The notes under the pieces: generated by a model
Seen by the model: only the letters and a program-made list of their open reading frames with translations
Told to the model about the DNA's origin: nothing
Database searches by the model: none
In this document: positions 709-29,085 of the stretch, one piece after another
Numbering within the stretch: the first letter of the stretch is position 1
Layout of the letters: every line of letters starts with the position of its first letter
Program-made: the position numbers and the translations under genes
Virus record (IMG/VR): IMGVR_UViG_3300034198_010885
Span: 1 to 30,163 of that record
DNA: 30,163 nucleotides
Source of the DNA: a virus
Reading direction: 5' to 3' (one strand)

Positions 709-728
709 TGTAATATAAAATATAAAAT

Positions 729-980
729 ATGGGATACGATAACACACCGAAAATTGACGTTATACGTCAAAACCAAACTCAAAACGTTAGAGAGTTTTTA
801 AAAGCAAAGGGTTGGATTAATTTATTGACAAGTTATGAATTCATGTCCTACGTGGAACTATGGGTTGATTATTGTATGAATGGTCCAACTGAAAAGAATA
901 AAAAAAGATTCAAACAATTTGACAGTATTATGTCAGATAGAATGAAAGAAGTGGAAGTTGATGGGATTATATTAGAGTAG
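729..980 (+). CDS. Unknown small phage protein
   Basis: An 83-residue soluble protein that I do not recognise. It has no signal peptide or membrane segment. The middle is aromatic-rich (around SYEFMSYVELWVDYCMNG), and the rest is charged with Lys/Arg stretches. It follows the GIY-YIG gene by 31 nt, has its own possible promoter in that gap, and is followed within 25 nt by a strong rightward terminator. It is therefore the last gene of a short rightward unit, probably expressed separately from the late genes. Confidence 0.6.
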   Translation: MGYDNTPKIDVIRQNQTQNVREFLKAKGWINLLTSYEFMSYVELWVDYCMNGPTEKNKKRFKQFDSIMSDRMKEVEVDGIILE

Positions 981-1004: not shown

Positions 1005-1047
1005 AAACAAGGGGATATGGTGTGGTGACCAGTCCCCTTTGTTTTTT
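1005..1047 (+). terminator. Rightward intrinsic terminator
   Basis: AAGGGGA (1009-1015) pairs with TCCCCTT (1033-1039) across an 17-nt loop. Flanking AAAC and GTTT extend the stem past a single bulge, and T-rich DNA follows at 1042-1047. It sits directly behind the two rightward genes. Confidence 0.75.
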
Positions 1048-1059
1048 GGTTAGAATTGA

Positions 1060-1070
1060 TATATTTAATA
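1060..1070 (+). promoter_or_regulatory. Phage-type promoter motif TATATTTAATA (rightward copy)
   Basis: An exact copy of the 11-mer found upstream of five leftward virion genes, here in rightward orientation. TTTG at 1038-1041 lies 18 nt upstream of the motif, a spacing compatible with a Bacteroidota -33 element. If TATATTTA works as the -10/-7 box, transcription would begin around 1074-1076, exactly where the predicted RNA helix starts. Confidence 0.55.
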
Positions 1071-1073
1071 TTA

Positions 1074-1177
1074 TAGGTGGTAGTATTTCAATATTCGTTC
1101 TGACATAATTTATATTTTTTACTCACTATCATCTGTGGTATTATACAACCGACCCCAGTTTCTACTGGGGTTTTTTG
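1074..1177 (+). ncRNA. Candidate phage small RNA, about 100 nt
   Basis: There is no convincing reading frame here, but the stretch has the three parts of a small RNA gene. First, the phage promoter motif sits at 1060-1070. Second, a closing helix pairs AGGTGGTAGT (1075-1084) with ACTATCATCT (1125-1134), ten consecutive pairs including two G-U. Third, a strong terminator lies at 1152-1177. An upstream terminator at 1005-1047 insulates it from the rightward genes. The inner loop (1085-1124) is AT-rich and could fold further. The function is unknown. An antisense or host-targeting role is only a possibility. Confidence 0.45.
1152..1177 (+). terminator. Strong rightward terminator of the candidate small RNA
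   Basis: ACCCCAGT (1152-1159) pairs with ACTGGGGT (1164-1171) around a TTCT loop, followed by TTTTTT on the plus strand. The leftward gene ending at 1178 abuts it, and the hairpin could also protect that gene's 3' end, but there is no U-tract in the leftward direction. Confidence 0.8.
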
Positions 1178-1778: not shown

Positions 1779-2237
1779 TTATTTTTTTTCAAGTTGAGCG
1801 TAACAGATCGCAAGCGCTTGTTCTTGAGTATCATATTCTGATCCTATTTCTTTCATACATCTACTTACATAATCTTGTTCAGATTCACCTGATTCAGGAG
1901 ATGGAATTGGAAATCCTTGTTTAACAACATCCATCTTTTCTTTTTTAGCTTTAATAGGCACACAATTAGGTGAACCATCATCTTTTAAACCGATCGGTTC
2001 GTAACCTTCCCAACATGGATTTGGTTCAATATTCATTTCTTCTTTACGTCCATACATGGCTTTAATTGCTCCACATACTTTCTTTGCGGTTTCTTCATCA
2101 CCATAACGTTCAGTTTGGTCAGCAACACATTCATCCCAAGGGTAAGCAGCCAAGTCAACAGATTTGGATTCCATTTTTGTAGGTTTAATGTTATTAAACA
2201 TTTCCTTACGTATTTTTACTAATTGGTCTAATTTCAT
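1779..2237 (-). CDS. Cys-motif phage protein, possibly virion-associated
   Basis: This 152-residue protein has three cysteine-pair modules. Near residues 33-58 is YPWDECVADQ...KVCGAIKAMYG. Near residues 73-95 is NPCWEGYEPIG...NCVPI. At the C-terminus is GESEQDYVSRCMKEIGSEYDTQEQALAICYAQLE. From memory, such short modules recur in phage head-region proteins, often at the ends of prohead proteases or next to portals, but their function is not known to me. It is the last gene of the leftward region, two bases after the ferritin-like gene, and is followed by the terminator at 1719-1742. A role as a minor head or decoration component is inferred from position only. Confidence 0.6.
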   Translation of the reverse strand: MKLDQLVKIRKEMFNNIKPTKMESKSVDLAAYPWDECVADQTERYGDEETAKKVCGAIKAMYGRKEEMNIEPNPCWEGYEPIGLKDDGSPNCVPIKAKKEKMDVVKQGFPIPSPESGESEQDYVSRCMKEIGSEYDTQEQALAICYAQLEKK

Positions 2238-3260: not shown

Positions 3261-4613
3261 TTAGTTGTTTGTTTCATCTTCACCCAACCATGCAGCACAC
3301 TCTTCTTGAGATAGACCATATCCACTCATTAACATTTGCATTGCTTGTTGTCTTGTTATTTTTTCTTTATTATATTCTCTTACAATTCTTAATAGAGCTT
3401 GATATTCCCTTCCTTTTAATCCTTTGATATTTTCATTAATTGTCATTTCTTGATTTTCAACTTCAACAGGGGATTTTGGTTTATTAACCACAGCAGGGTT
3501 TTCATATATGTTACCAGTTAAGAATAATGATAATGGACGTATTTCAAGAGTTGTTGGTTTTTCAAATTTCAAACTTAATAATTTATTGAAAGTTGGTAAC
3601 AATTCATCTTGATATGGTTTAACAACCGTTATTCTGAAGTACTCAGAATGTTCAACTATCTCAGAACCACTTCCCAATTTACCTGGTGTTGCTACACCAA
3701 ATAACTCAGCTGAACTAACTCTGTGAGCAGATAAAATTGAACGGTTAATATCGTCATATATTTGTTGATAATATGCATCATTTCCACCTGGACTAATTTG
3801 TGTTATTTCAGGTGCAGCATCTTTACTTTCACTAAATGAAATGATTGCTTGACCAGCATTATCACTACCTGAATATTGTTCTTCTAAAGCACGAGTTAAA
3901 ACTCTTTGTTCTTCTTCACCAGGGATACCATTATTAAACGATATGAAAAGTGATGGCATCATTCCTTTTCTTAAATTGTTCTTATGGAAGTTTTTAATTT
4001 CCACATCTATTTCAATTGATGCCAATCCACCTGAATAATCAGGAACCGCATAATATGTTGTATTTGGAGCATATTGTTTATAATACAATATTTGACTTGC
4101 ATCTTTACCATCTTGTCCAAATGGTTCATATTCTTTAGGTGGGAATCTTCTTAAGTTAGCCCAATCAGGACTAAAGAAGTATTTTTCAACTTCATCATCT
4201 TCATTCATCTTTCCCATTCTAATTCTTGATACGTCAATATGATGTATTTCAGCAATAGATTTTCTGTCTCTTGACCAAATAATATTCAAAGCAAAAGCTC
4301 CAAATAAAGTTAAATCCAAAGCACATTTACGAAAAATATCTACCACATTTTCTTTACCATTAAGTAAACTAATCACTGCCATCGGATTATTTAAAGAGTT
4401 CATTCCATCTCCACAAATCTGATTTACTTTACTGGTTATTACCGCTTTATGAATACTACAATTGTTAAATTGTGCAATCAAATAATTGGGCATTAAATTA
4501 GTTTCTCCATAATAAACCCAAGGAAATCTTTGTAAAGGTTCTGAAAAAACAGGTAAAGAAGCCTGTTTGAAACTAATTCGTTCTAATTTATTTTTTACTT
4601 TTTCTTCACTCAT
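3261..4613 (-). CDS. Portal protein
   Basis: The 450-residue product has the length and layout of siphovirus portals, which form the dodecameric ring at the capsid vertex through which DNA enters and leaves. Landmarks are an N-terminal segment WVYYGETNLMPNYLI (about residues 32-46), SIHKAVITSKVNQICGDG (about 53-70), a wing-like beta region to about 210, and the clip/stem region with FHKNNLRKGMMPS and GNDAYYQQIYDDINRSILSAHRVSSAELFG (about 275-305). The C-terminus (about 400-450) is helical and charged. It lies two bases after the upstream gene's stop and just before the connector gene. Unusually, it lies downstream of the capsid genes instead of next to the terminase. Confidence 0.85.
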   Translation of the reverse strand: MSEEKVKNKLERISFKQASLPVFSEPLQRFPWVYYGETNLMPNYLIAQFNNCSIHKAVITSKVNQICGDGMNSLNNPMAVISLLNGKENVVDIFRKCALDLTLFGAFALNIIWSRDRKSIAEIHHIDVSRIRMGKMNEDDEVEKYFFSPDWANLRRFPPKEYEPFGQDGKDASQILYYKQYAPNTTYYAVPDYSGGLASIEIDVEIKNFHKNNLRKGMMPSLFISFNNGIPGEEEQRVLTRALEEQYSGSDNAGQAIISFSESKDAAPEITQISPGGNDAYYQQIYDDINRSILSAHRVSSAELFGVATPGKLGSGSEIVEHSEYFRITVVKPYQDELLPTFNKLLSLKFEKPTTLEIRPLSLFLTGNIYENPAVVNKPKSPVEVENQEMTINENIKGLKGREYQALLRIVREYNKEKITRQQAMQMLMSGYGLSQEECAAWLGEDETNN

Positions 4614-28572: not shown

Positions 28573-29085
28573 TTAATTCATTTTTTTAAATACGTTATGT
28601 TTTATATCTGCTTTGGCGGTGTTTACATATCTTGCAATTGATGTTAATGGGATTGAAGTGGTTTTGCTTACTTTCTTTAAACTTCCCAATAACATATAAC
28701 GTTCAAATACGACTTTTCTAAACCAGTCCAAATCCGCCCAACATTCTTCCATTATCTGTAAAAACTCGTGTTTATTGAAATCGGAATCTGAATCGTGTAT
28801 TTCTAAATTTACACTTAATTCGTTATATAATAAACTTTCCCTTTTTACTTTATAGAAAAATGGACTTGTCTTTGAAAACCAGTTTATTTTCATTATTCCT
28901 ATGATGTAATATTTTATTGAATTGTCATCATAACTTCTTAGTTTAATGTCTTGTTTTTCATATAGTTGAAGTAAAACGTCATTTAATAAATCCCCTGCGA
29001 ACGAATCGTTCTTGGTCATTCTGTTTGATATTTCTAATAATTGATAGTAATGTTTGACGATGTAATTGTTGATTTCAGGCTTCAT
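28573..29085 (-). CDS. Sigma-70-like RNA polymerase factor
   Basis: This 170-residue protein has the length and two-part layout of small group-4-like sigma factors. Residues about 10-85 resemble region 2 (YYQLLEISNRMTKNDSFAGDLLNDVLLQLYEK...SIKYYIIGIMKINWF, with the D-x-L-x-D-V-L-L-Q/F pattern of core-binding helices and an aromatic basic end). Residues about 118-168 resemble region 4 with a helix-turn-helix (FRKVVFERYMLLGSLKKVSKTTSIPLTSIARYVNTAKADIK). The linker (90-115) is acidic. It would redirect host RNA polymerase to phage promoters, and the six TATATTTAATA sites are the obvious targets. A plain HTH regulator is the alternative. It overlaps the upstream gene by 11 bases. Confidence 0.65.
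   Translation of the reverse strand: MKPEINNYIVKHYYQLLEISNRMTKNDSFAGDLLNDVLLQLYEKQDIKLRSYDDNSIKYYIIGIMKINWFSKTSPFFYKVKRESLLYNELSVNLEIHDSDSDFNKHEFLQIMEECWADLDWFRKVVFERYMLLGSLKKVSKTTSIPLTSIARYVNTAKADIKHNVFKKMN

Follow-up and report, generated by a model that had tools for sequence, protein, structure and literature searches.

About 50 uncultured phage contigs from lakes and the sea, of a type associated with Bacteroidota hosts, carry a small RNA unit directly after the gene of a small protein, p74. Computation establishes the unit together with its strand, helix and conserved place, and the pattern of sequence change leaves little room for doubt that it specifies a conserved, independently encoded RNA. 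The family is undescribed in Rfam and in the literature searched. What the RNA does is a more evenly balanced question: the co-variation of its loop with the start of p74, which is supported by statistics, gives roughly even chances that it is an antisense repressor of that gene.

The copy that led to the family lies in a virus record of 30,163 bases, all of which was analysed and which we call the window. Its virion and packaging genes are on the minus strand, and at its left end is a small plus-strand block made up of an endonuclease-like gene (137-697), an 83-aa gene (729-980) and the RNA unit:

717 to 731, plus strand: candidate loop-binding site, the p74 leader and AUG, complementary at 14 of 15 positions to loop 1104-1118 (own-versus-swapped test at the level of the family)
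729 to 980, plus strand: p74-family gene (83 aa), directly upstream of the RNA unit and its candidate target; relatives have homologues at this position
1009 to 1047, plus strand: upstream intrinsic terminator, stem 1009-1015/1033-1039 plus T-tract (fold and sequence; relatives' terminators in the same place)
1038 to 1041, plus strand: -33 element TTTG, within the terminator T-tract, with a spacing of 18 to the -7 box (consensus from PMC6847099)
1060 to 1070, plus strand: -7 box TATATTTA inside the 11-mer TATATTTAATA (sequence and motif counts)
1072 to 1177, plus strand: predicted RNA transcript of about 106 nt (start from the -7 box spacing, end from the terminator; fold z -4.3)
1073 to 1084, plus strand: 5' arm of the closing helix (fold, shuffles, arm-swap test; covariation in relatives)
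1085 to 1124, plus strand: 40-nt loop, with ATATTC at 1091-1096 and the core TGACAT at 1101-1106 (family core TGCCAT)
1125 to 1136, plus strand: 3' arm of the closing helix (fold, shuffles)
1151 to 1177, plus strand: the RNA's own intrinsic terminator, stem 1151-1172 plus T-tract (terminator scan)

Most of this anatomy had been proposed in the initial annotation, and it holds up well. The 11-mer is found exactly where a plus-strand promoter motif had been reported. The helix described as 1075-1084 paired with 1125-1134 is real, its 10 pairs including 2 G-U, and it extends to 12 bp. The strong terminator said to end at 1177 was confirmed, and the supposed lack of a protein frame was borne out, in that any ORF starting within the stretch is shorter than 22 aa. 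The upstream terminator that was thought to insulate the unit, and which ends the 83-aa gene, was missed by the terminator scanner because its loop is greater than 8, but it is visible in both sequence and fold. Only the start needs revision: it had been placed near 1075, but the published spacing of the -7 box (which spans -12 to -5; PMC6847099) puts +1 at about 1072, so that the 12-bp helix begins at +2. An equally good helix at such a distance from the box was absent from all 2000 shuffles, and 14 of 20,030 positions of the window have one. Fourteen bases separate its 3' arm from the terminator. The unit as a whole folds with -28.3 kcal/mol, while the hairpin alone has a z of only -0.8, owing to the AU-rich loop.

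Searches with the single proteins encoded by the two genes flanking the RNA found no relatives. The portal protein led to 36 viral contigs, a conserved gene beside the RNA slot (window 1779-2237, alignment A1) to 80 loci, and p74 itself to 45 loci, on contigs that partly overlap the other sets. Nearly all p74-bearing contigs have, downstream of p74 and usually right after its terminator, a TATATTTA-like box followed by a hairpin of 7-17 bp. The hairpin begins 9-17 (mostly 12-13) bases after the first T of the box and encloses a loop of 24-61 nt, mostly 40-55. The sole clear absence of the unit in the first set of p74 contigs was L008. With a covariance model (R1), eleven records of 32-45 kb gave a single copy each and three gave no match; two of the three (G002 and G007) hold divergent copies. 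Another record, G015 (57,002 bases, the source of L136), has two copies about 32 kb apart; perhaps two phage genomes were joined there in assembly. Between the RNA and the conserved gene, the window encodes on its minus strand (1178-1675) a 165-aa protein that seems specific to this phage, with no homologue in the relatives and only a weak match to PHROG 36143.

A search by DNA pattern gave mostly chance matches plus two close relatives, a collection of annotated phages held no near relative of either the region or p74, and contigs of bacterial genomes yielded no relative. Nonlabens phage P12024S and Flavobacterium phage 11b are only distantly related, and the parts of them that were searched hold no convincing copy.

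The helix is kept while its letters change. Conservation in relatives had been named beforehand as an observation on which the RNA would stand or fall, and the outcome favors RNA. Since a MAFFT alignment of all members misaligned the arms of the helix, a subset of 18 was used to seed the model. In the MAFFT alignment of these 18 relatives, all 11 helix positions show compensatory changes on both sides and 99.5% of the cells are paired; the covariation score is 0.839, as against 0.265 after shuffling, and sliding the partners gives no more than 0.212. When 39 relatives are fitted to the model, the score is 0.783 (0.239 shuffled). The helices differ outright in sequence: AGGTGGTAGT in the window, GGTGGAGG in L014, GAGGGGAGTCC in L025, GGAAGGACGA in L003 and TGCTACCGGC in L036. 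The same conclusion comes from swapping arms among candidates that were chosen by promoter and loop word alone, with no helix criterion. A 5' arm forms a much better helix with the 3' arm of the same candidate than with those of others, and for the window, none of 39 foreign arms was as good as its own. On the promoter strand, there are 22 G-U cells and 1 A-C cell, which marks this strand as the one under selection.

No family of Rfam release 15 matched at or above its gathering threshold. Matches of low score to MicF, MicC, Spot 42 and FopS were set aside as chance. Nor was a description of this RNA family found in the literature searched, the coverage of which was partial. The surmise that the window holds an undescribed phage regulatory RNA is strongly supported by the compensatory changes as to a structured RNA outside Rfam, while "regulatory" is a role suggested by the co-variation of loop and target considered below.

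The 11-mer TATATTTAATA occurs six times in the window (0.2 expected). The five copies besides that of the RNA are on the minus strand (5021, 7544, 9119, 13228 and 24775), where they shortly precede the starts of late genes, at most a few tens of bases away and often about 13 before the ATG. From sequence, this placement suggests late mRNAs with short leaders or none, made from a phage-specific late promoter that dispenses with a -33 element. A sigma-factor-like protein is encoded at 28573-29085 (minus strand; PHROG 1740, E 2.4e-5) and kept in relatives (L014 6748-7266, L025 13842-14366); it could be what reads the late copies.

The promoter of the RNA has, in addition, a host-type -33 element. 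In Bacteroidota, the consensus is TTTG at -33 and TANNTTTG at -7, about 19 bp apart (PMC6847099; see also PMC9723704). TTTG stands exactly 18-20 bases before the TATATTTA box in 22 of 40 relatives, and TTG in 28; at other distances, there is almost none. With a spacing of 18 in the window, and TTTG-N18-20-TATATTTA in general, the RNA promoters agree with the Bacteroidota primary-sigma type, differing at the last base of the -7 box (A instead of G). In most members, the predicted +1 falls on the helix or one base before it. The idea that the RNA is under the same control as virion genes therefore survives only in part. The 11-mer is indeed common to both within the window, but the five late copies lack the -33 TTTG, so a common box is no proof of common control, and most relatives' RNA promoters carry TATATTTAT rather than TATATTTAATA.

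The window's own copy is very probably a divergent member of the family, a judgment from sequence that rests on position and anatomy and not on covariance-model score. Against models built without it, it scores 9.6-12.5 bits, which is not significant over the whole window (E 0.5 at 12.5 bits), and with model R2, it is not listed there at E up to 3; a search limited to 980-1180 gives an E of 0.023. Its loop shares ATATTC with the family and departs from the family core by one mismatch (TGACAT for TGCCAT). The case for membership is the slot after p74 and its terminator, the promoter, the helix at +1, the long loop and the separate terminator.

Outside the core, the letters of the loop are weakly conserved, but the core, (T)TGCCAT, is nearly invariant (among 40 members: T35, G37, C40, C40, A40, T39). 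Its complement, AUGGCA, consists of a start codon and then an alanine codon, and a search for this complement pointed to p74, the gene just upstream, as the candidate target. With starts as chosen automatically, p74 begins with ATGGC in 8 of 13 genomes, as against 11% over all gene families. Proteins of the p74 family are 74-90 aa long. An AlphaFold model of the homologue in L014 is a confident three-helix bundle (pLDDT 89) with no match in the PDB and nothing below E 0.001 in the fold search; lacking the look of a membrane peptide, p74 does not resemble a small hydrophobic toxin.

Does the pairing extend beyond the core? Across 26 lineages, loops fit their own p74 starts better than swapped loops do (p=0.00045), also when only ATGGC starts are considered (p=0.0013). 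The 14 lineages fetched after the idea was formed give p=0.027 and the combined 37 lineages p=0.00005; in the ten of the later lineages that resemble none of the earlier ones, the effect is weak (p=0.10). The initial annotation had advised a target search among phage mRNAs, and over 28 gene families in 12 genomes, it was p74 that had the lowest p and by far the highest pairing score. That p (0.0057, uncorrected) does not by itself survive correction for 28 families, but the other families have evenly distributed values, which means that the signal is not due to relatedness alone. The tape-measure gene, which starts with ATGGC in 12 of 13 genomes, was rejected as a target, as it shows no co-variation (p 0.90).

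Individual lineages show what lies behind these figures. Where p74 starts with ATGGCG (L003 and L036), the loop reads CGCCAT. L129 has acaATGGCAA at the start and TTGCCATTGT in the loop, so that acaATGG faces CCATTGT. L220 pairs ACAAAATGGCAC with GTGCCATTTTGT, a perfect match of 12 nt, and L101 has one of 13 nt (ATAAAATGGCAAA). Other examples are L069 (taacaatATGGC with GCCATATTGTTA), L191 (ATGGCACAA with TTGTGCCAT) and L219, with an 11-nt site just before the start codon. On the other side, about a third of the lineages have little or no match to p74 beyond the core. Their p74 starts include ATGTCA (L092, L098, L132), ATGAGC (L091) and some with ATGGAA (L080, L077 and L114 also fail to fit), and the loop core is unchanged in them. 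Moreover, leaders rich in A match U-rich loops easily. In the window, the start of a late gene (7511, minus strand) fits loop 1104-1118 as well as p74 does, which makes the target ambiguous from the window alone. When the best complementarity to all gene starts was compared with that of flank-shuffled loops, the result was marginal (Fisher p 0.04), in a test that missed one 20-nt match because the start in question is at a contig end. That match, seen in L146 (G002, minus strand, about 15879) and L145, is a perfect complement of the loop across the leader and start codon of a gene (MAKYYKQNNDAKFDFDLSQ...) belonging to the relative behind L036.

The main rival to p74 antisense is that the conserved loop of this structured small RNA binds, through its fixed core, a phage or host protein or a host RNA instead. 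This reading has an appreciable, though distinctly smaller, probability. An invariant CCA (40 of 40; CCAU in 39 of 40), whatever the start context of p74, suits a fixed partner, as does retention of the core in lineages with ATGTCA or ATGGAA starts; against it, the flanks of the loop co-vary with p74 starts in many lineages. Alternatively, the unit might act in cis, as the leader or long-loop attenuator of a downstream gene for a small membrane protein. Eight distinct relatives (L009, L061, L085, L088, L093, L101, L137 and L142) have a mini-ORF for a membrane protein of 36-45 aa (such as MKKFLIEFVEVLITLIGMCVGIF) just after the 3' arm, and in these the arm usually ends in a T-tract. Most members, however, have no such ORF and would have to be relics, the window among them, yet they keep the promoter, the helix, the loop core and a separate terminator, and a relic would not retain compensatory changes. 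Because the ORF is missing from most members, we consider a leader less likely than a protein or host-RNA partner.

Two other accounts are less probable still. The structure might merely protect or terminate the transcript, its loop having no partner, as a stabilizing 5' hairpin or an inert by-product. The position of the helix exactly at +1 is like that of RNA-stabilizing hairpins, and weak conservation over most of the loop would be natural, but the nearly invariant core, the constant genomic place and the co-variation of loop and target make this quite improbable. That the inverted repeat, situated as it is between convergent gene blocks, is a DNA element (a cruciform, an origin or a bidirectional terminator) is scarcely credible, given the excess of G-U over A-C cells on one strand and a promoter and terminator that have direction.

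According to the antisense model, the phage encodes a small RNA, some 65-110 nt long and closed by its terminator, which the host polymerase would transcribe from the RNA's own Bacteroidota-type promoter. A helix of 8-16 bp would lock the 5' end and present an AU-rich loop of 40-50 nt with an anti-start-codon core, (U)UGCCAU. The loop would pair with the mRNA of the upstream p74 gene over its leader and start codon, and possibly with mRNAs of other phage genes. Pairing would block the initiation of translation, making the RNA an antisense repressor that is linked to its target and acts in trans. What we infer here is that the RNA is transcribed, pairs in the cell and represses.

Many of these phages have a second conserved RNA-like element nearby (RNA2), on the strand opposite the first RNA, with its own TATATTTA box and upstream of the next gene. 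It has hairpins GTCC/GGAC and ACTG/CAGT inside a long terminator-like stem, and there is co-variation between the hairpin loops (e.g., CTTCTCAC and GTGAGAAG). RNA2 is present in L009, L010, L025, L074, L079, L088, L092, L095 (+ 3640-3760), L097, L098, L113, L122, L128, L137, L155 and L169; it has no match in Rfam, and a regular expression search did not find it in the window. A more far-reaching model, and a speculative one that we think improbable as it stands, is that of a switch used throughout the lineage: an anti-AUGGC loop, its flanks tuned in each lineage, would silence several mRNAs beginning with AUGGC, from the phage and perhaps from the host, p74 and the one gene of G002 among them, and together with RNA2 would time early expression.

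Few regulatory RNAs of Bacteroidota phages have been described. This family can be tested directly, since it combines strong covariation and a fixed place with an explicit prediction of base pairing, and it provides an RNA marker for a group of uncultured aquatic phages, with a second conserved RNA beside it. Since mRNAs of Bacteroidota lack Shine-Dalgarno sites (PMC6847099), an RNA aimed at the start codon would be a natural means to control translation. Other non-coding RNAs are likewise linked to Bacteroidota, namely 6S-flavo (RF01685), Flavo-1 (RF01705) and BTncRNA_FopS (RF04319), but none matches at gathering score, and the overlap of FopS, at chance level, is with the upstream terminator. 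DicF (PMC5069750) and the Pas sRNAs (PMC13192938) are likewise phage-derived RNAs for which base pairing is the proposed mode of action, but they reside in enterobacterial prophages, whereas this RNA occurs in uncultured phages and has no match in the bacterial genomes searched. The c4 antisense RNA of P1/P4/P7-like phages (RF01695; PMC2864571) is a structured antisense RNA encoded by a phage and controlling a linked phage gene, as is predicted here. It differs in its phages and its architecture, and Rfam scans show no match to it in sequence or structure.

There remains the comparison with the antisense RNAs of type I toxin-antitoxin systems, such as IstR-1/tisB, OrzO/zorO and OhsC/shoB. Like them, the phage RNA has its own promoter and adjoins, without overlap, a gene whose leader or start region it could pair with. 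Unlike them, it is encoded downstream and on the same strand, and in place of a short membrane toxin, the presumed target is a protein of 74-90 aa that, according to the model, looks soluble and three-helical. The complementarity of the phage RNA is 7-13 nt, centered on the AUG.
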